From Lawsonibacter sp. (GTDB lineage Bacteria > Bacillota > Clostridia > Oscillospirales > Oscillospiraceae): a DNA stretch of 44,151 bases. The notes below the pieces were generated by a model, which was not told the origin of the DNA, made no database searches, and saw only the letters and a program-made list of their open reading frames with translations. Below, piece after piece: positions 2,520 to 35,433 of the stretch. A program made the position numbers and the translations under genes. The DNA lies in contig JAAWAD010000012.1 of NCBI GenBank assembly GCA_022791995.1, forward strand, positions 1-44,151. Direction: 5' to 3'. How positions within the stretch are numbered: position 1 is the first letter of the stretch; each line of letters starts with the position of its first letter.

Positions 2520-3299
2520 TTAGCCGTATCGGGACAGGAAGTGGCGGGTCCGCTCCTCCCTGGGGTGCTCAATCACCTGGCGGGCCGGCCCCTGCTCCAC
2601 GATGACGCCGCCGTCCATAAAGATGATCTGGTCGGCCACATCCCGGGCAAAGGCCATCTCATGGGTGACGATGACCATGGTGGTCTTCTGCTCGGCCAGG
2701 GAGCGGATGACCTTTAGCACCTCGCCGGTGAGCTCCGGGTCCAGGGCGGAGGTGGGCTCATCAAAGCAGAGGATATCCGGCCTCAGCGCCAGGGCACGGG
2801 CGATGGCTACCCGCTGCTGCTGACCGCCGGACAGCTGGTGGGGGTAGTGTCCCGCCCGCTCCGCCAGGCCAATCTGACGCAGCAGTTCCTGTCCATAGCT
2901 CTCGATCTCGTCGAAAATCGCCTTCTTGTTGGCCTTGAAATCGGGGCGCTCCTGGGCCAGCAGCCGCCCCGCCAGGGTCACGTTTTCCAGGGCGGTATAC
3001 TGGGGAAACAGGTTAAAGGACTGGAACACCATCCCGAAGTGGAGGCGCTTTCTGCGCACCTCTCTCTCCCGCTGGGTGGCGGGGTCGGCGGCGTCGAAGA
3101 GAGTCTCCCCATTGACCAGGATGCGCCCCTGGTCCGGGGTCTCCAGAAAGTTGAGACACCGCAGCAGCGTGGTCTTTCCGCTGCCCGAGGAACCGATGAT
3201 GGCCAGGGCCTGCCCCTTTTCAAGGGAAAAGCTAATGTCCTCCAGCACCCGGGTGGACCCGAAGTGCTTTTCGATGTTAAGTACTTCCAAAACAGGCAT
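2520..3299 (-). CDS. Polar amino-acid ABC transporter, ATP-binding protein
   Basis: A 259-residue cytoplasmic ATPase subunit of the GlnQ/HisP type that powers uptake of a polar amino acid. Visible motifs in order: Walker A GSSGSGKTT, Q-loop VFQSFNLFP, signature LSGGQQQR, Walker B ILCFDEPTSALDPE, H-loop VTHEMAFA. The ATG at 3299 follows GGAGGGG. It is the last gene of a three-gene operon (binding protein, permease, ATPase), only 15 bases after the permease. The exact substrate cannot be told. Confidence 0.93.
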   Translation of the reverse strand: MPVLEVLNIEKHFGSTRVLEDISFSLEKGQALAIIGSSGSGKTTLLRCLNFLETPDQGRILVNGETLFDAADPATQREREVRRKRLHFGMVFQSFNLFPQYTALENVTLAGRLLAQERPDFKANKKAIFDEIESYGQELLRQIGLAERAGHYPHQLSGGQQQRVAIARALALRPDILCFDEPTSALDPELTGEVLKVIRSLAEQKTTMVIVTHEMAFARDVADQIIFMDGGVIVEQGPARQVIEHPREERTRHFLSRYG

Positions 3300-3314
3300 T
3301 GTATCCCCTCCTTC

Positions 3315-4070
3315 TCAGCGGAAAAATTCCAGTTTCTTTTCCAGGCGGCCCAGCAAAACCGTGACCACGCCGCTGAAAATCAGATAGTAGACCGCCGTAA
3401 AAAACAGCGGCCACACCAAGCCGGCGTATCCCTGGTTGCCCTTCATAAAGGTTTCTCCCATCCAAATGACCTCCTGAAGGGCGATGACCCGGGCCAGAGA
3501 GGTATCCTTGACCAAAGTGATGATTTCGTTGGACATGGGCGGAACAATACGTTTGACCATCTGGAGCAGCGTGACCCGGAAGAAGATCTGGGCCTTGGTC
3601 ATCCCCAGGACCAGTCCCGCCTCCTGCTGGCCCGCCGGAACGCTCTGAATGCCGCCCCGGTAGATCTCGGAGAAGTAACAGGCATAATTGATGATGAACG
3701 CCACGGCCACCGCAGCGAAGCGCCCCGACATCCCGCCTCCCCAAATGGGGAACCCCCGCAGGGGCGGCACAAAGAACAACGCGATGATTTGAAGCACCAG
3801 CGGCGTCCCTCGAATCAGCCAGACCATCAGCCGGCACAGCAGACTGACGGGCCGCAACGCGCCCAGCCAACGCACGGGCCGCGGCAGCCCCTCCAGCTTG
3901 AGCAGGAACTGGAATGGGGCCCAGGTGCTGATGGAGCCCATACAGATCACAAGTCCCAGAGGAATCGCCCCCACCAATGTGACAAAAAACAGCTGGAGTG
4001 TCTTGACAAAGCCGGTGTTCAGGGCGGCAAAGACAGTCAAAAATTCATCGGACGCAAAGAAGGTGAACAT
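3315..4070 (-). CDS. Polar amino-acid ABC transporter, permease protein
   Basis: A 251-residue HisM/GlnP-type membrane protein. The early hydrophobic segment FVKTLQLFFVTLVGAIPLG and the EAGLVLGMTKAQIFFRVTLLQ stretch (the EAA loop that contacts the ATPase) identify the family. A region rich in Pro/Gly around residues 75-110 lies between the first membrane spans. One permease is present, so a homodimer is expected. It follows the binding-protein gene after a 97-base gap that contains a strong stem-loop. Confidence 0.9.
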   Translation of the reverse strand: MFTFFASDEFLTVFAALNTGFVKTLQLFFVTLVGAIPLGLVICMGSISTWAPFQFLLKLEGLPRPVRWLGALRPVSLLCRLMVWLIRGTPLVLQIIALFFVPPLRGFPIWGGGMSGRFAAVAVAFIINYACYFSEIYRGGIQSVPAGQQEAGLVLGMTKAQIFFRVTLLQMVKRIVPPMSNEIITLVKDTSLARVIALQEVIWMGETFMKGNQGYAGLVWPLFFTAVYYLIFSGVVTVLLGRLEKKLEFFR

Positions 4071-4116
4071 GGGATCGTCCTCTCTCAGTTAAAATATGCC
4101 TGGACAGGAACTGCCC

Positions 4117-4145
4117 AAAGGCAGAGAGACCGGCTCTCTGCCTTT
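4117..4145 (-). other. Intercistronic stem-loop between binding-protein and permease genes
   Basis: A perfect 12-bp inverted repeat (4117-4128 with 4134-4145) around a five-base loop, with no T-run after it on the minus strand. Inside an operon just after a binding-protein gene, such hairpins commonly stabilise the upstream message or attenuate readthrough, giving more binding protein than permease. That role is inference; the repeat is seen directly. Confidence 0.7.
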
Positions 4146-4167
4146 GAGCTGTCGTCTGTGACAGGGG

Positions 4168-5064
4168 TCAGTCCAGAAGCAGCGACTCCTGCACGCCATA
4201 GGTGGTGCCAGTGGCCAGGGCGGTGCCGTCCGCCACGCTGTCAGCCCAGAACTGGTTGTAAGCGGCCACCAGATCAGAGCCCTGGCGGAAACCCACACCG
4301 TACTCTTCCGACTCCAGGCCCTGAATATCGTTCAGGTTCAGGGTGTGGGTCAGGTTTTCATAGCTGGTGCCCTCGCCGATCATGGCCCCCGCCATCAGCA
4401 GGTCGATGACCGCAGCGTCAGAGGTGCCAGCGGACACTTCCAACAGGGTATCCGCCTGCTTGGCAACCGGGACGACATTGGCGCCCAACGCCTCGGCAGC
4501 GTCCTCGCCCGCAGAGCCGGATTCCACTGCCACGCTCAGCCCCTCCAGACTGGTCAGCGCCTGGAAGTCCGCAGCCTTATCGGCGGGAACCACCAGCACC
4601 TGCGCATTCAGGGAGTAGGGGACGGAGGTGTCCATGGCGGCCATGACCTCATCGTTCAAGGTCATACCGTTCCAAACACAGTCGATGTTCTTGGCGTTCA
4701 GCTCCATAACTTTGTAATCCCAAGTAATTTCCACAAACTCAGCCTCTACACCAAGAGAGGTAGCAAAGGCCTTGGCCATATCGGCGTCAAAGCCGATCCA
4801 TTCGCCGTTTGCGTCACGGTAATCCATGGGGTCAAAGTCCGTGATGCCCACCACCAGGGTTCCCTTGCCCTTCACATACTCCAAGTCACTCTCCGCAGCC
4901 GGCTGGCTGGTGCTGCCGGAGCCCGTCTGACCGCCAGCACCTCCAGACGAACTGCCACCGGCAGAGCCAGACGAGCCGGACGTCTGGGAGGTATTTCCGC
5001 CGCCGCAGGCGGCCAGGGACAGGCACATAACAAGCGCCATAGCAAAAGACAGCATCTTTTTCAT
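4168..5064 (-). CDS. Polar amino-acid ABC transporter, substrate-binding lipoprotein
   Basis: A 298-residue SBP family 3 protein. The signal peptide ends in the lipobox SLAAC, with Cys20 as lipid anchor, followed by a Gly/Ser-rich linker (about residues 21-55). The ligand-binding fold starts near GTLVVGITDFDPMDYRD and includes WIGFDADMAKAFA. Start 5064 gives a proper signal peptide and has GGAGG 10 bases upstream; the open frame upstream of it contains the promoter. It is the first gene of the importer operon. Substrate prediction (glutamine, glutamate, cystine or similar) is not possible by eye. Confidence 0.93.
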   Translation of the reverse strand: MKKMLSFAMALVMCLSLAACGGGNTSQTSGSSGSAGGSSSGGAGGQTGSGSTSQPAAESDLEYVKGKGTLVVGITDFDPMDYRDANGEWIGFDADMAKAFATSLGVEAEFVEITWDYKVMELNAKNIDCVWNGMTLNDEVMAAMDTSVPYSLNAQVLVVPADKAADFQALTSLEGLSVAVESGSAGEDAAEALGANVVPVAKQADTLLEVSAGTSDAAVIDLLMAGAMIGEGTSYENLTHTLNLNDIQGLESEEYGVGFRQGSDLVAAYNQFWADSVADGTALATGTTYGVQESLLLD

Positions 5065-5101
5065 AATGAGGTATCCTCCATTTTTCAAGTCTCTTTTTCG
5101 C

Positions 5102-5122
5102 AAAGTGTCCTCGTGACACTTT
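5102..5122 (-). promoter_or_regulatory. Dyad at the transcription start of the importer operon
   Basis: AAAGTGTC (5102-5109), five bases, GACACTTT (5115-5122): an 8-bp perfect inverted repeat that begins three bases beyond the -10 box on the minus strand, over the expected start of transcription. It may be a repressor operator or a 5' stabilising hairpin. Confidence 0.5.
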
Positions 5123-5125
5123 CGC

Positions 5126-5154
5126 ATTTTAGTACGCTAATGAAGTGTTGTAAA
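5126..5154 (-). promoter_or_regulatory. Sigma-A promoter of the amino-acid importer operon
   Basis: Minus strand: -35 TTTACA (5149-5154), spacer 17, -10 TAAAAT (5126-5131). The predicted start is near 5119, about 55 bases before the binding-protein ATG. Confidence 0.75.
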
Positions 5155-23834: not shown

Positions 23835-24455
23835 TTATGAAAGGGACTCTTCCTCCAGCACACAGCGGACCGTCACCCGGTACTGCGCCCCGGCGGTGCA
23901 GGTAAACAGGGTCAGATCCCAGTCACCAGTAATCATCGCCTCCACCTCGTTGGGAGCCAGCTGCTCCAGCTCCGCCACGGTATAGCGGAACTCGTTCCCC
24001 TCCACATCAGTGAACCGGACCGTATCCCCTACCTCCAGCGTCTTCAGGCTTCCGAAATGGCGCTTGTAGTTATGGGCAGCGATGACCATATTGTTTTGAT
24101 ACAGCGAGCCGGAGTAACGGCAGGGAGCCACCTTCATATTGGGGTAGCTCCACTGGCTCAGGACAGGCAGGCTCAACTCCAGAACCGGAATGTCCAGCCG
24201 CCCGATATACTCCAGGCCGTCGATAGTGATGGTTGGCATCTCCATCTCCGGGGCGAGGACATAGTCAGGAAGCATCCCGACCGGCAGCTCTCCCCGGACG
24301 GTCTCCGTCATGGCGGTATTCAGCCGCTTCACGTTGGTCTCTGCCGCGATGGCGGCCCGGTTGTCGTCCCAGATGTTGTAGATGCTCAGACAGAGCGCCG
24401 CCGCCAGCAGCAGCAGGCCGCCTGCCATAAAGCCCAAGCCGTGTCTATTCCGCAT
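23835..24455 (-). CDS. Sortase, second enzyme of the pilus locus
   Basis: A 206-residue membrane-anchored transpeptidase. N-terminal span (GGLLLLAAALCLSIYNIW), then the sortase barrel with catalytic His128 (AAHNYKRHFG), Cys186 (LTLFTCTAGA) and Arg193. It lacks the C-terminal span of pilin-polymerising class C enzymes, so it is more likely the housekeeping-type or class B/D enzyme that anchors the finished fibre. GGGAGG precedes ATG 24455; the start overlaps the upstream gene by 11 bases. Confidence 0.9.
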   Translation of the reverse strand: MRNRHGLGFMAGGLLLLAAALCLSIYNIWDDNRAAIAAETNVKRLNTAMTETVRGELPVGMLPDYVLAPEMEMPTITIDGLEYIGRLDIPVLELSLPVLSQWSYPNMKVAPCRYSGSLYQNNMVIAAHNYKRHFGSLKTLEVGDTVRFTDVEGNEFRYTVAELEQLAPNEVEAMITGDWDLTLFTCTAGAQYRVTVRCVLEEESLS

Positions 24456-25605
24456 CCTGGACCTCCCACCTCCGGTTTTGGGCCCAGCCGATCAGAAACA
24501 GCAAAATACCGCCGGCAGCCAGCATGGGCACCGGCCACCAGAGCTGCCCCGTGCGGGGCAAGTCCTCCAGGGGCACATCCGGGTCCGGGATATCAAATTC
24601 CTCCGGCAGATCGCTCAGGGGAATATCCGGGTCATCCAAGGGAATCTCCGGTGGAGGAGTCAGGGGCACCTCCGGGTCCTCCAGGGGGATTTCCGGGTCG
24701 GTGGGATCGCTCGGACGCCGGGGTGGGCGGTCCGGGGGGGCGTCGGGATCGCTGGGGTTATAGGGCTCGTCATAGGTGTTGGTGATGATAAACTGATAGC
24801 CGCCATCGAACCGGTTGGAGGTCACATAGGAGTCGTACCGGCTGCCCACGTTGACCTCCCGCACAGTCCAGCGGTAGCCCGGATCTAGGTCATACCAGTC
24901 ATAGCTCCAGCTGTTGGCGGTCAGCGTCACGACCTGACCATACCGCACGCCGTCACGCAACAGTTCCACCGTCACCGAGCTGGGGCGCTCCCCTCTGTGG
25001 CCGGTGTCCCGCCAAACCTTTCGGACATGAATCTCAATGGGCTCGTCACGCATCATGGAAAACTTCGGCGTGGCGTTCACCTGATAGGTCCAGGTCTTCC
25101 CATCGGTGGAGTTCGGAAGGGCCACAAGGAAGGCGGAGGGGGTGTACACATAGTCATCCCGCCGGAAGCTGTCTCCCACCACCAGATAAAGGCCCACCGG
25201 CAGGCCCGCGCCGTTGGCGCCGGTAAACCGGGCCCGGCCATTGGCGTCGGTCCAGGCTGTGTCTGTGGCTGCGATGCTCTGGCGCTGGGCGTAATTGGTC
25301 AGCCGCCACGCCAGATTATCCCAACCGCTGGCACTCATGCCGCCGGTGATGGCAAAATCCTGGACCCCAAAGGGCACGCCAAAGCGGATATTCCCGTTCT
25401 CCGACCACATATTCGCCACCCGGTAGGCCCGGAAGGCCACGCCCGCCGCCGCCCGCCCCTTAGGGGCGAAGCTGACGGTAAGGGTACAGTCCCGGCTGGT
25501 ATTGATCTCGTCATAGGCGAAGGCGGTCCCCGGCAGACACGACCCGCACAGCAGCAGGCTCAGTGCCAGCGCCGCCAAGCGCCGGAACCAGTATTGTTTT
25601 TTCAT
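24445..25605 (-). CDS. LPXTG surface protein with CnaB domain, minor pilin/anchor candidate
   Basis: A 386-residue secreted protein. Signal peptide ends near AFA (residue 30). The middle contains a CnaB-type beta-sandwich (about 200-300: EIHVRKVWRDTGHRGERP to FIITNTYDEP). Then comes a Pro/Asp/Glu-rich wall-spanning stretch with repeats of the type PEIPLEDP (about 310-345). It ends with LPRTG (349-353), a hydrophobic span and a positively charged tail. The start overlaps the class C sortase stop (ATGA). Likely the base or minor subunit of the pilus. Confidence 0.88.
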   Translation of the reverse strand: MKKQYWFRRLAALALSLLLCGSCLPGTAFAYDEINTSRDCTLTVSFAPKGRAAAGVAFRAYRVANMWSENGNIRFGVPFGVQDFAITGGMSASGWDNLAWRLTNYAQRQSIAATDTAWTDANGRARFTGANGAGLPVGLYLVVGDSFRRDDYVYTPSAFLVALPNSTDGKTWTYQVNATPKFSMMRDEPIEIHVRKVWRDTGHRGERPSSVTVELLRDGVRYGQVVTLTANSWSYDWYDLDPGYRWTVREVNVGSRYDSYVTSNRFDGGYQFIITNTYDEPYNPSDPDAPPDRPPRRPSDPTDPEIPLEDPEVPLTPPPEIPLDDPDIPLSDLPEEFDIPDPDVPLEDLPRTGQLWWPVPMLAAGGILLFLIGWAQNRRWEVQDAE

Positions 25606-26477
25606 TGCTGGGAATCCTGCCTTTCTGTCGCGCGGACGTTTGACCGTTTCCGCTTCTTCCTCTTCTTGCCGCTCCCGCTGAACATCATCCAAATGCTGGC
25701 CAGCAGAAGCATGGGAACCGCCGCCGCCGGCGCCACAAGAATCGGGTCCACACGCATGGCGTCCGCCGAAACACGGACCGCCGCCGCCGACTCCTGATTC
25801 TCAACCCTGTGGCCCCGCACCAGCAGCCGGTGGGTGTTGATGCCATAGGGGGTGCAGGTAACAAGGGTGCAGTAATCCCGTCCCTCTTCAATGGCCAGAT
25901 CGTCCATCTCCTGGGGGAGCACGATGTGGATCTGGTCCACCTGATAGGACAGCGTCTCGTTCAAAACCTGGAGCATGAAGATATCCCCCACCTCCATCCG
26001 ATCCAGGTCGCTGAACAGCTTTGCACTGGGCAACCCCCGGTGGCCGGACAGCACACAGTGGCTGGATGCCCCGCCTACCGGCAGAGTGCTGCCCTCAATG
26101 TGCCCCACCGCAATTTGCAGCACACTCTCGTCCGTGCCGTGGTAAATAGGCAGCACACACTCAATCTTGGGTATCTCAATATACCCCATGATGCCGTTTC
26201 CAGAGATGTTCAGCCGCTGAATATACTCTGCCCACTCCTCCTCCGACACCAGAAATGGCTCCGGCTTGGCCCGCAGCGCCTCGTTGTACACCACAGCCTC
26301 CAGCCAAAACCGCTCATAGTCTACCGAGCTCAGCGTCGCTACACTCTCTGAGTAGCCCGCTATCGCCCGGGATTGGTGAAAGGAATTCCAGTAGTCACTG
26401 GCCGTGGGATACAACAACAGCGCAACCCCCGCCACCAGCACCAAAAGCAGAAATATGGTGGACAGATTCTTTTTCAT
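25602..26477 (-). CDS. Class C sortase, pilin polymerase
   Basis: A 291-residue enzyme with membrane spans at both ends (residues 8-23 and about 243-266), the layout of pilus-building class C sortases. Catalytic His146 (LSGHRGLP), Cys208 (TLVTCTPYGINTHR) and Arg217 are present. The segment before the barrel (about 50-95) should be the regulatory lid, but the usual DPF/DPW anchor motif is not seen; the nearest is KPEPF. It lies between the major and minor pilin genes. Confidence 0.94.
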   Translation of the reverse strand: MKKNLSTIFLLLVLVAGVALLLYPTASDYWNSFHQSRAIAGYSESVATLSSVDYERFWLEAVVYNEALRAKPEPFLVSEEEWAEYIQRLNISGNGIMGYIEIPKIECVLPIYHGTDESVLQIAVGHIEGSTLPVGGASSHCVLSGHRGLPSAKLFSDLDRMEVGDIFMLQVLNETLSYQVDQIHIVLPQEMDDLAIEEGRDYCTLVTCTPYGINTHRLLVRGHRVENQESAAAVRVSADAMRVDPILVAPAAAVPMLLLASIWMMFSGSGKKRKKRKRSNVRATERQDSQQ

Positions 26478-26567: not shown

Positions 26568-28202
26568 TCAGTCTTCCTGGCCCATGCGGCGCTTCGTCAC
26601 CAGCAGAATCACTGCGCCAACCGCCAGAATGCCGCCGGCAATGTAGAAAATTGTGGTGCCGATACCGCCGGTGCTGGGAAGGACAACACCAGTGAAGTTG
26701 TAGATGTCCGCCGCCAGATGTCCGACTGTCAGCTTGCCGGCCTCGGCGCTCTGCTTAATCTGACTGGAAGCAACCTGTGTCCAGGTTGTCACGTTTGTAT
26801 CTGTTGCTACATCTGCGGTATACTCGGTCACAGTCAGTGCGGTCAAATTGCCAGCAGCGTCGTATACAGGGGTCAGCTGGAAATAGATGTTGGAGATTTT
26901 CGTATAGCCACCTGTAGGAACCCTTGTCTCTTCCAGCCTGTAGTAGCCTTCCGCCAAATCCTTGAATTCAAACTTGCTGAGCTGCTCATCGACACCAAGG
27001 ACTCTGACATCGGTCCACTGGTTATTTGTGCTCAGTCTGCTCAGTGTAAACTCTGCACCGGACAGCAGTTCCCTTGTCTCTTCAGTCGTTCCGGTATCGC
27101 CATTATACTTGAAGATATCCAACTCGAAGGTATAGACGGTAACTTCCTTTTTGGTGTCATCGCCTTCCAGCCAAGCAGTGTTCTTGTTTCCGCCGGTACC
27201 AATCACCGCATTCTCCAGCAATTTGGCCTTGTACTGCACAATAATCTGTGTATCGGCAGTAAGTGTGATGCCTTTCCGTGCAGCCAGAGCTCTCAGGTCG
27301 GTAATGGAAACATGGAAGTCGCATGTTCCGTTCGTGCCTTCTTCATTATTGGGTCCAAAAGTAAGTGTGTAGTCAGTACCAGTAGTGAGTGTAACACCGC
27401 CAAATGTTACTGTGACAGTTGTAGGGCGTTCCCAAACACCTTCTGCCAAATCATCGTGGAAGGTCATAGGGAACTCGCCTGTTCCATTGAGATCAAAGTT
27501 GCTGGGCAGAGATGCAACCAGTCTGAAATCCACTTCCTGTCCGGCCTTCGGCACGGGGTAGGTTGCAGCCACGCCCCAGTCGGCGGGATTATCAGGATTG
27601 CCCTCGTATTTCAGAACCTGCTTCTCCAGCGGGGGAACATCCTCAGTTTTCAGATTGATTGTGTTGCTTTCACCAAGCACAGGGCAAGCCATATATTTGG
27701 TTGTATTGTTGAAGTTGTCGGCAATCAGATAGTATCCGTCCACAAGATCATTGTGTGTAAATACAATATCCGCAGCACTTTCTGAAGCTTTTCCATAAAT
27801 CGGCGTTCCGATCGCCGTCGAGCCGTGATTTGCGCCAGCGGCATTTGCAACCGCCTGCGCAACCGCCTGGGTGTTGCCAGCCGCCTGAATCGCGGCGGCA
27901 ACATCATTGGCACTGCTCGTAGCAGCATTCAAAGCCATGATTTCACGAACCTCTTTAAGTGTCGCATCCTTTTGAAGTGCCAATATGAATTGCTGCCGTG
28001 TTTCTTCTGGCATGGCGGAGCCCCACTCCACATCTTTCAGCCGGTCTCCATCTGCGGTTCCAGTGAAAATCTGGTAGATGTTAAAGCTGTGTCCGGTGGT
28101 CTTACCTGCAATCGTCAGGCTCTGTGCAAACGCTGGAATCATCATGGCCGCGACCATGAGCAGGGCCAGCGCGGTGCTGGCAAGTTTTTTCAGGTGCTTC
28201 AT
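26568..28202 (-). CDS. Major pilin subunit, isopeptide-forming, LPXTG-anchored
   Basis: A 544-residue secreted shaft subunit. Signal peptide ends at AFA26. D1 holds NDLVDGYYLIAD (about 151-162); EKQVLKYEG opens the next domain. YPVPKAG (K219) fits a pilin-motif lysine used by sortase C. The last domain has the E-box LAEGYYRLEETRVP. The protein ends with LPSTG (508-512), membrane span and KRRMGQED. AAGGAG is 10 bases before the ATG. The coding sequence is visibly more AT-rich and less codon-biased than its neighbours, which suggests exchange of pilin alleles. Confidence 0.94.
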   Translation of the reverse strand: MKHLKKLASTALALLMVAAMMIPAFAQSLTIAGKTTGHSFNIYQIFTGTADGDRLKDVEWGSAMPEETRQQFILALQKDATLKEVREIMALNAATSSANDVAAAIQAAGNTQAVAQAVANAAGANHGSTAIGTPIYGKASESAADIVFTHNDLVDGYYLIADNFNNTTKYMACPVLGESNTINLKTEDVPPLEKQVLKYEGNPDNPADWGVAATYPVPKAGQEVDFRLVASLPSNFDLNGTGEFPMTFHDDLAEGVWERPTTVTVTFGGVTLTTGTDYTLTFGPNNEEGTNGTCDFHVSITDLRALAARKGITLTADTQIIVQYKAKLLENAVIGTGGNKNTAWLEGDDTKKEVTVYTFELDIFKYNGDTGTTEETRELLSGAEFTLSRLSTNNQWTDVRVLGVDEQLSKFEFKDLAEGYYRLEETRVPTGGYTKISNIYFQLTPVYDAAGNLTALTVTEYTADVATDTNVTTWTQVASSQIKQSAEAGKLTVGHLAADIYNFTGVVLPSTGGIGTTIFYIAGGILAVGAVILLVTKRRMGQED

Positions 28203-28263
28203 CTTTCCATTTCTCCTTTCAGTTTCCACATTGTTCGTTCTTTTGCGCGGGAGGGAAGCATAC

Positions 28264-31200
28264 TTAATCAGCCGCCTCCTCTCCCCAGGAATATTTTTTA
28301 TACCATAGAGCGCCGACTGCCAGCAACAGCAAACCGCCCAAAGTATACCAGAGGGTACCGATTCCGCCCGTGGCGGGGAGCGCATAGTAGTAAGCGTTGG
28401 TGTAGACGACCTGAACGGGGACCTCGGGGTTGCTGATGGCGCCGCCGGCGGTACCGTCCGTGCTTTGCAGCACGCCGTCCACGGTGACAGAGGCGTTGTA
28501 GTTGGCGCCGGCCTCCTCGCGGACGCTGTAACCGATGCCGCTGGTCAAACCCATCACCTTGAGGGATTCGCCGTGCTTCAGCTTGAATTCATTCGCCGCC
28601 CCGGGCGCCAGGGAGATCTGCCCGATCTCCTTGCCGGAAGCATCGTAGCGGTTTGCCTGCCAAGTGCTGGTTGTATTGCTCAGGGTGAGGTAGAAGGTGT
28701 ACTCGGTCTCGCCCATGTTTCCCGCCTCCAGGCCGGTCTCCAGCTTCTGGATGACCAGGGGGGACTCCTCGGGGTTGGGCTGCACCGGGGGGGTGACCTG
28801 GGTGATCTTGGGCAGGGTGTACTGCATCCAGCAGGTGGAGCCGGAAGCGCCGCGCTCGGTGTAGAAGAAGTGCAGGGTGTACTCCTTGTAGCCGTCCGGG
28901 CGGCCCTCCATGGGGATATAGTCCCACAGGTTGACGTACTCGCCCACGGAGGAGTGGACGCCGCCGATGTCGCAGACCATTTGGATTCCGTCGGGGCCGT
29001 CCAGGAAGACCCACATGTCGTCGTCGCCGTAGAAGTAGTACTCCAGGGGACCGACGTACTCCTTGGCCAGCTGGAACTTGACAGAGAAGTTCATGCCGAA
29101 GTAGGCGTTGTGGTTGCCGCCGTCGTCGCTCTCAGGAAGAGCACCCTTTGTCGTGGCGGGCGTATTGCCTTTTGCGCCAAAGTTGGGGTCCGCCCTCTTT
29201 CCGGTGACATCATCCATGGGCCAGAAGTTGTTGGTCCAGATGTACTTATAGCTCTGGGGATGGCGGAAGGTATCCAGGTTTCCCCTGGTGTGCCCATCCA
29301 CTGTCACACTCTGGAGGGTGAAGGTGTCGCCCTGCTGGGCAAAGTTCAGGGAGCCGCCGTAAGATGTCTTGCCGTCGGCCCCCCCCAGGAACAGGTTGGG
29401 GGCGTCGAGCTCGCTGTCAAACACCGGCTTTCCGTCGGCGTAGCCGGTGACCAGCTTGAAGGTACAGCCCTGATAGCCCCGGTCCTTTGTGGCATCAAAC
29501 GTACCTTCGTCACCCATGGGGTTCCAAGTGGGGTTATTGCGCTTGTTGGGGTAGTTGCTGCCCCACTTAATGGTGCCATAGTCTGTGCCTGCGTTCTGGT
29601 TGCCAAAGGCAAGCCGTGTGCCGTCGTTGCCAGTGGTGTTGCTGTTGATGCCCTGGCTTTCCGCGTTGTACTTGCCGTTGGCATCCTTCACACCGTTGGT
29701 GATGTCGTAGTCATAGAAGGCAGCGGCGTTTGTATGGCCCTTTGTGGCCGGGTCGTAGACCATGCGGAACACGGTGCCCTCAGTGATGCAGATGGTGCTC
29801 TCGTCGGCGGCGTCGGGGTTGTTAGTGAAGGATACCGTGGGGGGATTGTACACCGTCCAGTTGTCCGGGTTTTCCTTGTACTCGTCGGTAATCTCCACGC
29901 CCTCGGGCTGATTCAGGACCCACAGCTCTTTCAGGGCGTAGTTGTCGTTGTTCGCCTGCTTCAGGCTGTCCATGTCGTCGATGGTCAGGCCCTTTTGGGG
30001 ATTGAAGAAGTGGGTGTTCTCCTCCAGATAGACCCGTGTCAGCTTGTTCTCGGTCTCCAGCCTGTTGTTCACAATGTTGAAGTAGGTAAGATTCACTTTG
30101 TCCCGGCCATTGTTGTCAGGCAGCTTGGCACTTCCGCCGTTTTTCTCGGCGCTGGTGTCGATGAAGTAGATGGGGCCGTCGTTTGTTTTTTCATAGCTCT
30201 TCGCAACGGCATCTGAAGCGTATTGATGGACGGGCCGGTCCAGGTTGGCGTAAAACTCCACGGAGTAGCTGGGGTACACGTTGGACAGCAGGCCGGTGAC
30301 GCCGAAGCTCCGGCTGGCCATCGTCCGCACGGTGATGGTGTTGCTCTCGGCGGTGCTCTCCGCGTCCAGCACGCTGTTGCTCAGCACGCTCTCGGTGTCC
30401 AGCGCAACCACGGCAACTGCGGGCTCCTCGGGCAGCTCGCTGTTCTCCAGATCCTCCGGGTCAATGGCGTACATGGCTGCGGTCTCCTGCATGGAGGCCA
30501 GCAGCTCCGCCTTGGGGGTGATCTCCACCATGAGCTCGCATTCAGACAGGTCCAGCTCCTCCCCGTTCAGGGAGGCGGTGACCGTCAGGACCTCCAGGGG
30601 GATGAACTCCTCCTCCTCGTCGCAGTCCAGCCGCCTGGCCACCTCCTGGTAGGCCTCGTCGGCGTCGGTCAGGGGGACCATCTCGAACTGGATGTCGTCC
30701 TGGGTGACGGCGGGGGTATTGGACTCGTCCAGGGTGAAACCGGGGTCCAGATCCTGCTCCGGGGAGAGGGGGGCTGTGCTGTCCTGGACCAGGTCCTGCG
30801 GGAGATCCTGGGGCAGGTTCTCGCTGTGTGCGGCGGCGCCGGTTTCGGCGGCGGGCAGCTCCACCCGGCCGGAGACGGTGAATTTCAGGTCAAAGGCCTG
30901 GAGCTCGCCGTCAAACTCCTTGTTGTCCAGCCAGAGCTCCACCGGCTTCTGCTCCGGCTGCTCCAGACACGCCTCGGTATGGGTGTGCTCCTCCAGCCCG
31001 CACACCAGCTCGCCGTACTCGTTGCAGCAGGCCTCGGTGTGTGTATGGGCGGCAAAGCCGCAGAAGCAGTCCTCGTCTGCAATCGGCGCTTCGGGATCTT
31101 GCAGGCACGCCTCGGTATGGGTGTGCTCAACCAGGCCGCAGATCCGCTCAAGAAACTCGTTGCTGCACGCGTCGGTGTGGGTATGGGCGACAAGGCCGCA

Positions 31201-32619
31201 GAAGCAGTCCTCGTCCGCAATCGGGGCCTCTGTCTTCTCCAGACAATCCTCCGTGTGGATGTGCTCGGCCAGAGTACACAGCAGTTGGCCGTCGGCGAAG
31301 TAGCAGCCCTCGCCGTGGGTATGCGCTGAGAAGCCGCACAGGTACTTCTGGCCCAGCTCGGGGAACACCTCCAGATAGCACCCATCGGTGTGGGAGTGTT
31401 CCTCAAGTCCGCACAGCAATGTGCGGACTTCCTCGTTCTCTACATCCTGGGTGTAGACGCAATCGGCGGTGTGGTTGTGTACAACGGCCTCGGGCAGGCC
31501 GCAGGTCAGGGCGCCGGCCTCGTCGTAGCAGCTGTCGCTGTGGGTGTGGGGGCGGAGCTCCTGCTTCCCGCAGGACATCTCCCAATCGATCTGGTAGCAG
31601 GCGTCGGTATGGACATGGCCCTCGGGGCGCTCCGTCTCGTGGCAGGTAAGCTCCTGGCTCCAGTCATAGCAGCTGTCGGAGTGAACATGGCCGGCGGGCT
31701 GCTCGGTCTGGGTGCAGGTGAGCTCCTCCTCCTGGGCGTAGCAGCTGCTGTCATGGGTGTGGCCGCTTTCCTCAGGCTCAGAGCAGGTCAGGGTTCTGAT
31801 CTCCTCCACGGTGTAGCACGCGCCGCTGTGGCTGTGTCCCGGTTCCTCGGCCTCACCGCAGACCAGATCGCCAGGAATCGTGGTGTAGCAGCTGCTGTCG
31901 TGGCTGTGTTCTTCCCCCTCCTCCAGGGAGCAGGTCAGTTCCTCCCGGTCCGGGGCATAGCAGCTGCTGCTGTGGGTGTGGCCGTCGCCCTCCGGGATGG
32001 AGCAGGTGAGGGTCTCGATGGTCTCCACCGTGTAACAGCTGTCATCGTGGGTATGACCGCCCCCCTCCGCCTGTGTACAGGTCAGACCGCTGGTGACGGT
32101 GGTATAGCAGGCACTGGTGTGGGTGTGCGACGCCTCCTGACTCTCTGTCTCTGTACAGATCAGCTCTCCCCGGTGGAGAGTATAACAGGCGTCGGTATGG
32201 GTATGGCCGGGCTCCTGAAGCTCTTCGCAGACCAAGGTACGGCTCTCCCGCCAGCAGCTGTCGGTGTGGGTGTGGGTGTCAACCTCGGCAAGGGTGCAAA
32301 TCAGATTGCCCTCGTTGTCATAACAAACGTGATTGTGGCTATGGAGAAGGGCGCCGCCGGCAGGGACCTGCGGACTGCAAATCAGCTCCACCCGGGGGGC
32401 GGGGACCTGCATGGCATAGCAGGCCTCGGCGTGGGTGTGCTCCTCCAGCCCGCAGGTCAGCGTATTGGACAGGGTGATCGCCGGAAGGATGAGGGCATAG
32501 GTTGTGCAAAATACAACCACGGAGGCCAGCACAGTAAACACCTTGTGGCCCAGGCGCCGGCGCCTGCGGGAGGCATGGTATTGGCTGGCCTGGGTCATAA
32601 AGCTGTGCTCCATTTCCAT
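28264..32619 (-). CDS. Giant LPXTG adhesin with 21 Cys/His repeats and fibro-slime domain
   Basis: A 1451-residue surface protein, probably the pilus tip or a separate fibre. An Arg-rich start and hydrophobic export segment (about 26-50) end in YALILPAITLS. Residues 56-551 hold 21 units of C-x(4-13)-H-x-H-x(3-4)-C. A Glu/Asp/Gln-rich linker (about 560-760) follows. A fibro-slime/PA14-like domain (about 790-1290) includes GMNFSVKFQLAKEYV, YFYGDDDMWVFLDG and LHFFYTERGASGSTC. One more CnaB-like domain (about 1300-1410) precedes LPATG (1414-1418), span and tail. AAAGGA lies upstream of ATG 32619. Second gene group member after signal peptidase. Confidence 0.93.
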   Translation of the reverse strand: MEMEHSFMTQASQYHASRRRRRLGHKVFTVLASVVVFCTTYALILPAITLSNTLTCGLEEHTHAEACYAMQVPAPRVELICSPQVPAGGALLHSHNHVCYDNEGNLICTLAEVDTHTHTDSCWRESRTLVCEELQEPGHTHTDACYTLHRGELICTETESQEASHTHTSACYTTVTSGLTCTQAEGGGHTHDDSCYTVETIETLTCSIPEGDGHTHSSSCYAPDREELTCSLEEGEEHSHDSSCYTTIPGDLVCGEAEEPGHSHSGACYTVEEIRTLTCSEPEESGHTHDSSCYAQEEELTCTQTEQPAGHVHSDSCYDWSQELTCHETERPEGHVHTDACYQIDWEMSCGKQELRPHTHSDSCYDEAGALTCGLPEAVVHNHTADCVYTQDVENEEVRTLLCGLEEHSHTDGCYLEVFPELGQKYLCGFSAHTHGEGCYFADGQLLCTLAEHIHTEDCLEKTEAPIADEDCFCGLVAHTHTDACSNEFLERICGLVEHTHTEACLQDPEAPIADEDCFCGFAAHTHTEACCNEYGELVCGLEEHTHTEACLEQPEQKPVELWLDNKEFDGELQAFDLKFTVSGRVELPAAETGAAAHSENLPQDLPQDLVQDSTAPLSPEQDLDPGFTLDESNTPAVTQDDIQFEMVPLTDADEAYQEVARRLDCDEEEEFIPLEVLTVTASLNGEELDLSECELMVEITPKAELLASMQETAAMYAIDPEDLENSELPEEPAVAVVALDTESVLSNSVLDAESTAESNTITVRTMASRSFGVTGLLSNVYPSYSVEFYANLDRPVHQYASDAVAKSYEKTNDGPIYFIDTSAEKNGGSAKLPDNNGRDKVNLTYFNIVNNRLETENKLTRVYLEENTHFFNPQKGLTIDDMDSLKQANNDNYALKELWVLNQPEGVEITDEYKENPDNWTVYNPPTVSFTNNPDAADESTICITEGTVFRMVYDPATKGHTNAAAFYDYDITNGVKDANGKYNAESQGINSNTTGNDGTRLAFGNQNAGTDYGTIKWGSNYPNKRNNPTWNPMGDEGTFDATKDRGYQGCTFKLVTGYADGKPVFDSELDAPNLFLGGADGKTSYGGSLNFAQQGDTFTLQSVTVDGHTRGNLDTFRHPQSYKYIWTNNFWPMDDVTGKRADPNFGAKGNTPATTKGALPESDDGGNHNAYFGMNFSVKFQLAKEYVGPLEYYFYGDDDMWVFLDGPDGIQMVCDIGGVHSSVGEYVNLWDYIPMEGRPDGYKEYTLHFFYTERGASGSTCWMQYTLPKITQVTPPVQPNPEESPLVIQKLETGLEAGNMGETEYTFYLTLSNTTSTWQANRYDASGKEIGQISLAPGAANEFKLKHGESLKVMGLTSGIGYSVREEAGANYNASVTVDGVLQSTDGTAGGAISNPEVPVQVVYTNAYYYALPATGGIGTLWYTLGGLLLLAVGALWYKKYSWGEEAAD
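30967..32454 (-). repeat. Tandem Cys/His-coding repeat array in the adhesin gene
   Basis: Twenty-one units of about 20-27 codons. Each has a Cys, then a His-x-His pair (mostly HTH, HSH, HVH), then a Cys three or four residues on, usually followed by Tyr. Early units are diverse; the last four fall into a higher-order duplication of about 47 codons (30967-31250) with shared EAPIADEDCFCG, near identical in DNA. Two Cys and two His per unit fit zinc/iron binding or disulfide loops. Confidence 0.9.
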
Positions 32620-32659: not shown

Positions 32660-33244
32660 TCAAATCGGCCCGAAGGTCTCCATCGGCCAGATCCGAAGGA
32701 GAAGCCGTCCCACAACCTGCTCGTCTGACACGCAGCCCACCGCCGTATTCCGGGAGTCCAGGGAGACGCTGCGGTGGTCCCCCATCACAAAGACTCTGGA
32801 TTCAGGCACCTGGTAGGGCAGCTCAATGTTGCAGTCGCCCAGGGCCTTCTCCATCAGGTAGGGCTCATCCAGCTTCTGTTCGTTGACGTAAACCGTGCCC
32901 CGCTCGTCAATGTCCACCCAATCCCCGGGGCCGGCAATCACTCGTTTAATCAGGACCTTATTGTCGTAGTAGAAGGCGATCACATCGCCGGTGCGAAAGC
33001 CCAGCCCCTTCAGGGAGATCACCACCTCCCCTTCGGAAAGGGTGGGCGTCATAGAGTTTCCGCTGATCTGGAGGACCGGCATCCAGAGGGTTGCCACCAG
33101 CACGGCGGCGGCGGCCACTGTAATCAGAGCGTATACCGTGCTGCGCAGCACCCGGTTGTACCGCCTGCGGTATTTCGTCCGCCCCAGTTCAGCCTCCAGC
33201 AGCTCCACGGAGGGAATCTCGCTTACAGCTCTCTTTTTGCGCAT
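32660..33244 (-). CDS. lepB: Signal peptidase I of the pilus locus
   Basis: A 194-residue membrane serine protease with one N-terminal span (VYALITVAAAAVLVATLWMP). Catalytic Ser64 is in SGNSMTPTL and Lys100 in LIKRVIAGPGDW; the GDHR-x-x-S-x-DSR box is present. ATG 33244 has GGGAGG 8 bases upstream; a GTG three codons earlier overlaps the preceding stop. Sitting directly before the adhesin gene, it is likely a dedicated processor of the pilus proteins, as in Gram-positive pilus islands. Confidence 0.92.
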   Translation of the reverse strand: MRKKRAVSEIPSVELLEAELGRTKYRRRYNRVLRSTVYALITVAAAAVLVATLWMPVLQISGNSMTPTLSEGEVVISLKGLGFRTGDVIAFYYDNKVLIKRVIAGPGDWVDIDERGTVYVNEQKLDEPYLMEKALGDCNIELPYQVPESRVFVMGDHRSVSLDSRNTAVGCVSDEQVVGRLLLRIWPMETFGPI

Positions 33245-33249
33245 CCCGG

Positions 33250-33720
33250 TCACCTCCCCGGCGGCTTCGGTATCTGGTAGGAGAGCAGCTCTGCCATTCC
33301 CGCGTGGTCCGCCAGGTACTTGTCAAGCTTCTGCGAGACCTCGGTCCAGTAGGACTCCGCCTTCTGCCGGGCCTCCTCCTCCATGGCCTTACATCGGGCC
33401 GTGGTCTCGGACAGCAGCTCCTCGGCGGTCTGGCGGCTCTCTGTCTCCAGCCGCTGGGAAATCTCCTGCTGACGGGCGCTCAGGGACTGAATGTTTTCCA
33501 GATACTGCTGGGCGGCGGCCTGGGCCGCTTCGTACACTCCGTTCAGACGAAAGGCCGCTTCTGCGATGGAGCCTGCCTCCTCCAGGGCGATGCCCCGGCT
33601 CTCCAGCTGCGCCTGGGCCTGCGCCAGCTGCTGCTCCAGCTCCTCAGCGCGCTTGCTCTGTACAATCAACATCTCCAAAAGCTCCTCGCGCCGAAGCTTT
33701 TTCAGCTCCTTTTCCGTCAT
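33250..33720 (-). CDS. Coiled-coil protein of the pilus locus (DivIVA-like)
   Basis: A 156-residue acidic, Gln/Glu-rich protein with an almost continuous coiled coil: KELKKLRREELLEMLIVQSK, then EELEQQLAQAQAQLESRGI, then a second helix with AAQAAAQQYLENIQSLSARQ and many Glu/Arg heptads. No signal peptide. DivIVA-like scaffolds could place the secretion/pilus machinery; that is inference. Start 33720 follows GGAGAGG. The frame stays open upstream to TTG 33903, which has AAAGG 6 bases before it, so a 61-residue longer form is possible. Confidence 0.78.
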   Translation of the reverse strand: MTEKELKKLRREELLEMLIVQSKRAEELEQQLAQAQAQLESRGIALEEAGSIAEAAFRLNGVYEAAQAAAQQYLENIQSLSARQQEISQRLETESRQTAEELLSETTARCKAMEEEARQKAESYWTEVSQKLDKYLADHAGMAELLSYQIPKPPGR

Positions 33721-33945
33721 CGCTTCCTCTCCAAGCCCTTCCTTTCGCTGGGCGATACCCCGCCGCATTTGTTCTCTGCTGCGATTCAAATTCAGCATAT
33801 GCCGGGCCGCGCCCGGATGTTCTTCCAAAAATTCCAAATAAGTCACACAATGCAGGGCCGCTTTTTTGCTTTTTCCTGGTATAATGTATCTCTTTCCTCT
33901 CAAGTTTTACCTTTAAGAGGCAGTATTCCTCTTCCAGCCACTATG

Positions 33946-34227: not shown

Positions 34228-35433
34228 CTATAGCGGTCCCTCCTGGTGCAGGGGCTGATCTTCCGGCAGGGAGTCCAGCTCCAGAGGGCGCACAGAGACC
34301 CGAAAGCGCGCCGGCGAGTGGGGATACTGCCGGACAAAGGCCCGCAGCGTCCGGTCGCAGACCATACACGCGCTCTCGTAATTGGCTTGGGGCAGCAGCA
34401 GAATGAACTGCGAGGCGCTGCACAGCGCGGCGATATCGCCCCGGCGCAGACCCTCCCGCACGACCTCCTTCAGGTGGCGCATCACCCGGCTCAGGCTCCG
34501 CTGGGCCAGGGGGCCTCCGTTGCCGTCTGTTACCGAGAGGAGGGCCAGGTGGGCAGCCTCCCCCGTGCGGGCCGCCTGCCGGGCGGAGGCCTGGCAGATG
34601 GCCTTGAAAAAATCGTAATCGCAGAAGTAAGCGCCGCCAGGGCCGGGCCCCTCCCGCAGCTGCTCCAAAATCACATCGGAGGAGAGGGCGCGACTCTCCA
34701 GCGAGGCCAGTACCCTCCGGTACAGGCCCCGCAGCTCCTCCGAGGGCAAAATCCCATAGTCGGCCAAAAAGCGCTCCTGCATATCCTCAAAGACGGTGGC
34801 GGCGCCCCGCCGGTTCCCCTGCTCCAGCAGGGCGTTCATCCACTGGAAATAGAACTGCTCCTCCGAGGGCTCCTGAGCCACGCTGCACATGCACAGCTCG
34901 GCCATCTCCTGCCAGCGGCCCTCCTCCTTCAGCTGGGGCAGCGCCTCCAGGGCGGTCTGGACATACCGCTCCTTCAGCTGGCCGGCCATCTCCGCCGTCC
35001 AGGTCCCTCCGCTCAGCCTGGACAAAAAGCCCCCCCGGTACAGCGCCAGCGCCTGGAGCCTGTCCTCCTGCTGGCCGGAGCAAAGCCGGGAAAACTCCTC
35101 TGTATCCAGCCAGAGCGGATAGGCGGGGTTCCAGGCATACCCCTCCTCCTGGCGGAGCAGCAGATCCCGCCCCGCGCCGTCCCACAGCTGGTTCAGGCTG
35201 GCCCGGGCCCGGTGGAGAATCGTCTTCAGCGCGTTTGGCAGCTTGGAGTCCTGGGGCACCCGCTCCCAGAGCAGGGCGGACAGCTCCTCCACAGCGGCGG
35301 TATGGCCCCTCCGGCAGATCAAATAGGCCAGCAGCAGCCAGACCTTATGGGAGCGGTCGTCTCCAATTCGCTTGTCCTGATACTGAATGGAAAATCCGCC
35401 CAGCATCCGAACCCGCAATCTATCTTCCTTCAC
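34228..35433 (-). CDS. BTAD-domain (SARP/AfsR-like) transcriptional regulator
   Basis: A 401-residue protein. N-terminal winged helix like OmpR/SARP (about 5-95: RVRMLGGFSIQYQDKR, HKVWLLLAYLICRRG). The bacterial transcriptional activation domain follows (about 105-250, TPR-like helices). The last about 140 residues resemble a degenerate GGDEF/nucleotide-cyclase fold (YFCDYDFFKAICQ, RRGDIAALCSASQFILLLP) without the catalytic signature. Start is GTG 35433 with GGAGG 8 bases upstream. It lies just upstream of the pilus operon on the same strand and is its likely activator. Confidence 0.85.
   Translation of the reverse strand: MKEDRLRVRMLGGFSIQYQDKRIGDDRSHKVWLLLAYLICRRGHTAAVEELSALLWERVPQDSKLPNALKTILHRARASLNQLWDGAGRDLLLRQEEGYAWNPAYPLWLDTEEFSRLCSGQQEDRLQALALYRGGFLSRLSGGTWTAEMAGQLKERYVQTALEALPQLKEEGRWQEMAELCMCSVAQEPSEEQFYFQWMNALLEQGNRRGAATVFEDMQERFLADYGILPSEELRGLYRRVLASLESRALSSDVILEQLREGPGPGGAYFCDYDFFKAICQASARQAARTGEAAHLALLSVTDGNGGPLAQRSLSRVMRHLKEVVREGLRRGDIAALCSASQFILLLPQANYESACMVCDRTLRAFVRQYPHSPARFRVSVRPLELDSLPEDQPLHQEGPL

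Follow-up and report, generated by a model that had tools for sequence, protein, structure and literature searches.

Repeated Cys/His units, candidate metal knuckles, at the N-terminus of a pilus-type LPXTG adhesin of Lawsonibacter sp. and related surface proteins of Clostridia

The adhesin gene and its pilus-type locus

The window, i.e., the whole stretch of 44,151 nucleotides analysed from Lawsonibacter sp., encodes an array-bearing LPXTG adhesin of 1451 amino acids together with sortase and pilin-like genes. The following features were identified from ORFs, profile matches, and the sequence itself.

23835..24455, minus strand: second sortase (profile match)
24445..25692, minus strand: Cna_B-domain pilin-like protein (profile match)
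25602..26477, minus strand: class C (pilus) sortase (NF033745, 266.8 bits, cut-off 160)
26568..28385, minus strand: LPXTG protein with GramPos_pilinBB and SpaA domains, resembling SpaH/EbpB backbone pilins (NF033902 under its cut-off); the ORF is taken from its first start codon and the true start is probably internal
28264..32619, minus strand: the adhesin (signal, 21-unit array, linker region, fibro-slime domain, DUF7601, LPXTG anchor; ORF and profile matches)
28294..28380, minus strand: LPXTG wall anchor (LPATGG), residues 1414-1442 (profile match)
28396..28722, minus strand: DUF7601 domain, residues 1300-1408 (profile match)
28819..29094, minus strand: fibro-slime domain TIGR02148, residues 1176-1267 (E 5.6e-15, 55.6 bits, cut-off 45)
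30961..31266, minus strand: two-unit stretch of 138 bp (46 aa) duplicated in tandem where the array ends C-terminally (79-84% matches)
30967..32454, minus strand: array of 21 units C-x(4-11)-H-x-H-x3-C (pattern match and shuffle test)
32476..32562, minus strand: N-terminal export signal, limits approximate, residues 20-48 (sequence; hydrophobic segment in relatives)
32660..33253, minus strand: signal peptidase I gene just upstream of the adhesin (profile matches)

The neighbours of the adhesin gene, namely signal peptidase I, two pilin-like genes, and two sortases, lie on the same strand, which makes this a sortase-dependent pilus locus by content. The adhesin itself has the attributes of a sortase-anchored protein, i.e., an export signal, a C-terminal LPXTG motif, and linked class C sortase and pilin genes.

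The array was recovered exactly where the initial annotation had placed it, with 21 units counted by pattern from 32454 down to 30967, and the order export signal, array, fibro-slime domain, LPXTG motif was borne out by the sequence and the profile matches. There are exactly 21 HxHx3C matches in the 1451-aa ORF, each of them preceded by a Cys (the four positions are called C1, H1, H2, and C2 below), and the first C1 is residue 56. Shuffling of residues 48-560 gave a mean of 0.14 units (maximum 3 in 5000 shuffles) and shuffling of the whole protein a mean of 0.02 (maximum 2), while HxHx3C occurs 0-2 times in each of the remaining five frames of the window. The gap between C1 and H1 is 4 in unit 1 and in units 15-21, and 7-11 in units 2-14. 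C2 is followed by Tyr in 14 of the 21 units and by Trp in one, in agreement with the earlier remark that Tyr mostly follows. The HxH core also stands, whereas the proposed H2-C2 spacing of 3-4 is 3 in 21/21 units, and the proposed C1-H1 range of 4-13 becomes 4-11, a gap of 13 requiring that the other His of HSHNHVC in unit 2 be taken as the first. The mention of free Cys is right in part, as the array contains three extra Cys (472, 518, and one of the 531/532 doublet), which make its total odd (45); Cys 472 and 518 are carried by the tandem duplication.

Three further loci of the window deserve mention. Adjacent to the pilus locus (34228-35433, minus strand) is a BTAD/SARP-type regulator whose tail weakly resembles GGDEF (Pfam E 0.0073, under cut-off); it is matched in 10/80 related loci and may therefore regulate the locus. 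Between it and the signal peptidase gene (33250-33903, minus strand) lies a coiled-coil-like protein with a weak DivIVA-like match (E 0.0016) and without a confident family, which has matches in 38/80 related loci. An amino-acid-type ABC transporter ATPase and substrate-binding protein are encoded at 2520-5127 (minus strand), with cystine (TcyN) and lysine/arginine/cystine binding as the best NCBIfam matches, all under cut-off.

Distribution and host proteins of the array

In its own genome, which is about 80% complete, the window array was the one match found. Used as a query, it had matches in 13 of 60 near relatives, and a three-unit profile matched 39 of 394 genomes drawn from the order (30/168 genera) and 4 of 348 drawn from the phylum, the own genome being counted in each case. 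Among named genome contigs, 157 stretches were confirmed, and the best 80, corresponding to 79 loci, were kept. The record titles of the kept loci include Lachnospiraceae, Oscillospiraceae, Blautia, Dorea, Pseudoflavonifractor, Lawsonibacter, Colidextribacter, Tyzzerella, and Mordavella, among others. Array records are mostly from Clostridia and often from animal gut samples; one Coriobacteriaceae bin and one Atopobiaceae bin (L091, L119) are also among them. Altogether, 132 loci gave 119 distinct array ORFs with 2 to 26 HxHx3C cores each, and 110 arrays were retained after those with fewer than four canonical units or a truncated start had been dropped. The occurrence of such repeats on surface proteins of other gut Clostridia, which the initial annotation had mentioned, is supported by the 119 ORFs.

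The plasmid search for the array gave no match, and the phage search gave one record, MT835974.1 (L132), a 14-kb unannotated "Bacteriophage sp." faecal scaffold. Its array ORF has an LPXTG motif and the scaffold also matches the class C sortase, the pilin, and the signal peptidase I of the window; probably, it is a mislabelled bacterial contig. Carriage of the array as mobile-element cargo was therefore rejected, as plasmids were without match and the sole phage record is probably bacterial.

The C-terminal parts were compared in 31 proteins, i.e., the window protein and 30 chosen ones, mostly with an LPXTG-like end. They contained fibro-slime (n = 14), SpaA (n = 13), DUF7601 (n = 13), Cna_B (n = 6), CHAP (n = 4), and VWA (n = 3) domains. 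As these bodies vary widely, the array behaves as an N-terminal module placed before different bodies. By its C-terminal part, the window protein belongs with the fibro-slime LPXTG adhesins and pilus ancillary proteins, whereas the array lies outside TIGR02148 and also occurs on proteins without a fibro-slime domain.

A hydrophobic 16-mer was found no more than 60 residues before the first C1 in 106/107 arrays, its end lying 6-31 residues (median 14.5) away. The preceding signal has an LPAIT-like end in 37/107 arrays (window example VVFCTTYALILPAITL), and many other array signals end in GIA, GQA, or GVA before MT. At the other end, an LPXTG-like motif lies within the last 60 residues in 44 of the 61 ORFs taken as complete, a loose criterion by which some of the 61 are cut or frameshifted. 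The C-terminus of an LPXTG protein sits on the wall. As the array comes right after the signal while the C-terminus is wall-anchored, it should be the outermost part, i.e., the distal end of wall-anchored proteins. A rigid stalk had been among the roles suggested for the array; given its position after the signal in 106/107 arrays, it is expected to be distal and not between the wall and the adhesin, and a stalk below the adhesin was rejected on this ground.

Matches to the class C sortase of the window were found at 43 of 80 loci, to its pilin at 48, and to its signal peptidase I at 51, with searched flanks of up to about 9 kb, many of them shorter; some of the pilin matches may be the array protein's own domains. 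The array signal and signal peptidase I (51/80 loci) possibly form a dedicated processing pair.

Ligand conservation and the choice between metal and disulfide

Of 1124 canonical units, 553 have a C1-H1 gap of 7 and 348 a gap of 4, so that these two lengths account for 901/1124. The gap was limited to 20, and 28/1124 are at least 11; longer C1-H1 inserts occur, e.g., in L016, L069, L132, and L048. Between C2 and the next C1, the gap is 8 in 536/1005 cases, and even gaps of 4, 6, 8, and 10 (n = 713) are set against 108 gaps of 5, 7, and 9. Distances of at least 13 make up 169/1005, some of which span units missed by the pattern. There are 64 distinct two-unit modules with a 4-residue gap. The unit consensus is L-x-C-G-x-x-E-(xxG)-H-T-H-T-D-x-C-Y, with Tyr after C2 in 827/1124 units, E at C1+4 in 79% of the units, and D or E at H2+2 in 76%; the conserved acidic residues would suit second-shell partners of metal-bound His. 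The linker and loop lengths do not cleanly decide the phase of the unit. A Cys within 30 residues after the last HxHx3C half is present in 4/107 arrays; since the arrays thus end at C2, C1..HxHx3C2 suits as the unit. It has the four conserved Cys/His positions of a Cys2His2 knuckle, with a less rigid C1-H1 gap. Two irregularities were also observed. An extra Cys at C1+5 (CGxEEC) recurs in L101, L110, L115, L092, L131, and L020, and by eye, a CHAP amidase-like stretch is apparently inserted between units of the array in L085.

The second half of the unit is close to invariant. Of 1155 HxHx3-6C halves in the 110 arrays, 1132 have a spacing of 3, 13 a spacing of 4, and 10 a spacing of 5, and an HxH without a following C2 occurs in one case. 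By reading, about ten units have lost His and keep Cys (e.g., L037, L122, L038). The near-invariant His leans towards metal, as it is not expected of a purely disulfide-bonded module.

Each array was also written as a string of halves, in which A is a Cys without HxH and B is HxHx3-6C; a second Cys directly after C2 and the Cys of the CGxEEC type were excluded from A. Pure (AB)n strings make up 76/110 arrays. A minus B is zero in 92 arrays, positive in 18, and negative in none, where any other Cys counts as A, so that an excess of A arises easily, and where the unit-finding patterns themselves contain C1. A B lacking its own A is present in 21 arrays, every one of which also contains an orphan A at another place (in equal number in 16); orphan A occur in 13/89 of the remaining arrays (Fisher 5e-14). 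By similarity clusters at a threshold of 0.4, the same comparison gives 15/15 versus 9/50 (p 6e-9). At 0.3, there are 11 clusters (4/4 versus 0/7) and at 0.2 a single one, a collapse which makes the independence of the events only rough. The clearest case is L046, in which three A-less B at 17-residue spacing are accompanied by three orphan A at 16. If a His-less half is counted as B, L053, L127, and L129 contain an unmatched B. The balance indicates that every HxHC half has a Cys half as its partner, in keeping with a site of four ligands; even Cys pairing alone would also allow two unmatched B. The balance is weakened by the fact that a single event, a block inserted into the C1-H1 loop, produces both an orphan A and an A-less B. 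An order fitting a whole-unit block inserted there is seen in 14 of the 21 irregular arrays, and the reverse order in 7 (L046, L087, L090, L123, L006, L027, L085).

That the array is a functionless repeat expansion is very improbable. Core numbers ranging from 2 to 26 and the 138-bp duplication are what such an expansion would leave, whereas the ligands stay near-invariant while the rest diverges, and the half-site balance likewise speaks against it. In the window, the ligand codons are mixed synonymously (34 TGC and 8 TGT, 29 CAC and 13 CAT), which points to selection on the residues, and third codon positions are the most divergent in the B octets (0.44 per site versus 0.25 and 0.34).

The main rival to metal binding is a disulfide-locked bead, with a C1-C2 bond formed outside the cell and the His kept for packing, turn geometry, or pH sensing; we judge it unlikely, though a serious competitor. 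The array protein is extracellular, the Cys count is even in 90/107 arrays, and Cys has been lost even less often than His, as in the roughly ten units that retain only their Cys. Pilins of some Gram-positive genera also carry disulfides. The surroundings of gut anaerobes, however, are reducing, a near-invariant HxHx3C is not required for a disulfide, and 17/107 arrays, the window's included, have an odd number of Cys.

The enzymes point in the same direction. The thiol-oxidase search covered DSBA and VKOR among extracellular oxidases and was positive in 8 and 3 of 14 control genomes, respectively. Over cut-off, VKOR was found in 0/394 genomes of the order and DSBA in 12/394. Of the 39 array-bearing genomes, 37 lacked DSBA, two had it (G065, G360), and none had VKOR; the own genome, about 80% complete, had neither over cut-off, so that the DsbA- or VKOR-type oxidase expected in a cell with disulfide modules was not seen. 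DSBA is no rarer with the array (2/39) than in array-free genomes (10/355), which makes its scarcity a lineage trait, not one tied to the array.

The choice between metal and disulfide, which the initial annotation had left undecided, is thereby narrowed towards metal by the His, the rigid H-x3-C, the half balance, the rarity of DsbA, and the absence of VKOR over cut-off. A metal of some kind appears fairly likely. Cys2His2 sites usually bind Zn(II), which by sequence pattern is the most likely metal here, with Fe, Cu, Ni, and Co also conceivable. Heme or a c-type cytochrome was rejected, as by motif inspection the units are not CxxCH. Of the roles suggested by the initial annotation, heme storage and a redox-sensitive spring found no support in this analysis.

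Predicted fold, known systems, and possible roles

Two segments of the array were modelled with AlphaFold2.

31231..31353, minus strand: two-unit gap-4 module, 41 aa (pLDDT 90.9, pTM 0.51)
31450..31794, minus strand: five-unit stretch, 115 aa (pLDDT 73.8, pTM 0.29)

All five models of the two-unit module (63-row alignment) have a pLDDT of at least 86 and a helical turn ending on each C2. The five-unit stretch is of the longer-gap type, and its other four models range from pLDDT 58 to 41 (lowest 40.8). With a confident two-unit and a poor five-unit prediction, the mini-fold can be trusted far more than the way in which the units are arranged overall. The ligand site within the unit is predicted from the sequence pattern. 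Foldseek found no similar PDB structure for these models (best E 3.1 and E 10) and there is thus no zinc-site precedent by fold.

A named domain covering the units, which had been envisaged as an objection, was looked for in Pfam, NCBIfam, and PDB and not encountered. No Pfam-A or NCBIfam model covers the window array at E up to 1, and a PDB sequence search had no match at E up to 10; a further PDB comparison gave one match, a TPR protein, at E 0.26. Among known zinc-finger families, no Pfam finger model scored over cut-off and no solved fold was matched, and a relation to solved zinc-site folds was accordingly rejected by both sequence and Foldseek. The PCYCGC-motif lipoproteins (PF13798) are likewise Cys-rich surface proteins of Firmicutes. 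PF13798 weakly matched 23/74 five-unit fragments (best E 2.4e-5) and 0/10 full arrays at E 0.05, and this relationship was set aside as chance or at most a lead. A literature search at title and abstract level, covering few subscription journals, did not find the repeat named, and its literal repeat strings were unmatched. Intracellular zinc knuckles and Cys2His2 fingers resemble the units in having four Cys/His in 12-19 residues and, in the model, a helical turn at the second ligand pair, whereas the array is extracellular and has the spacing C-x4/7-H-x-H-x3-C. A small Cys/His metal-site repeat is known in principle; in the form seen here, as a half-site-balanced array outside the cell at the N-terminus of mature pilus-type adhesins, it matched nothing described in the libraries searched.

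With moderate confidence, and from the sequence pattern, we read the array as a string of minimal Cys2His2 metal knuckles, most likely binding Zn(II), at the distal end of the adhesin. C1 and the H-x-H-x3-C2 half would provide four ligands per unit, the helical turn would be formed by the residues before C2, and the units would be joined by a linker, most often of 8 residues (CY-DExGEL-xC in the short type). Zn(II) would be loaded after export. With its 12-19 residues, a bead has no room for a hydrophobic core, and its folding would be brought about by the bound metal, in cells mostly without DsbA and VKOR. The beads would make up the N-terminal, distal part of the adhesin, which is wall-anchored and probably associated with a pilus, and serve there as an outer segment that is folded by metal and variable in length; they may also present a multivalent, metal-dependent binding face. 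The existence and spread of the array, the conservation of its ligands, the balance of halves, the place behind the signal, and the pilus-type neighbours were observed, and from these we infer metal occupancy, zinc as the metal, a location at the pilus tip, and function. The sites would chiefly be structural, folding short beads without disulfides; given how many repeats it has and that it should be distal, the array would also be suited to a multivalent tip, adhesive or cohesive. Tentatively, and with less confidence, A and B halves may pair one to one, usually as neighbours and sometimes across sub-arrays or inserted domains like nested brackets; a programmable metal-folded scaffold of this kind could read the gut metal supply into fibre-tip structure or adhesion.

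Two other roles would also involve metal. The first, by analogy with the streptococcal Pht proteins, is a zinc reservoir or scavenger in which exposed sites gather metal for uptake and copy number sets capacity. The up to 26 HxHx3C cores per protein and the exposed position after the signal segment are compatible with it, and in both systems the surface of a Gram-positive cell carries repeated, His-rich modules that bind metal, if metal is indeed bound by the array. To our knowledge, Pht modules lack paired Cys. Their motif HxxHxH is absent from the window array, which contains no set of His at i, i+3, and i+5. Cys2His2 sites usually bind Zn tightly, which suits structure over exchange. Profile searches of the window ORFs scanned revealed no zinc-uptake or Zn transporter gene; the neighbours are sortases, pilin-like genes, and signal peptidase, and these make a zinc store less likely. 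A role in zinc homeostasis, with transfer of zinc to AdcAII, has been proposed for Pht proteins, and phtD is in one operon with adcAII, a zinc-transport gene (PMC3842936), whereas the array gene is found in a sortase/pilin locus. On balance, we consider a reservoir quite unlikely.

The second role is adhesion that depends on zinc, either homophilic or by bridging, on the model of staphylococcal Aap: the distal arrays of neighbouring cells or pili would lock through metal. Although compatible with the knuckle reading, it is unlikely as the explanation of the array. The array should be distal and is variable in length, and the half balance in irregular arrays would let non-neighbouring A and B pair. 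Local A-B order is by far the commonest (76/110 pure (AB)n), however, such that the sites can be satisfied within one chain. The Aap B-repeat region is wall-proximal, in contrast to the N-terminal array. Aap B-repeats mediate zinc-dependent homophilic interactions (PMC9802226), and like the array (for which zinc is presumed), the B-repeat (G5) region consists of repeated segments of an LPXTG surface protein linked to zinc. The array units are much shorter and have a local Cys2His2 pattern, and no match to the G5 domain of Aap/SasG was found in the window protein at E up to 1.

Minimal metal knuckles at the distal adhesin end thus remain the favoured reading. The repeat is common in the order of the window (39/394 genomes), yet matched no family of the libraries searched, and may be a so far overlooked means by which anaerobes construct the outermost part of a surface fibre. 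The half-site balance is a directly testable folding rule. If metal does fold the array, the repeat is an example of how long extracellular segments are stabilised in bacteria that have no obvious disulfide system; it also supplies 12-residue metal beads whose number can be freely chosen, and ties adhesion to the metal supply, as set by zinc in the diet and calprotectin.
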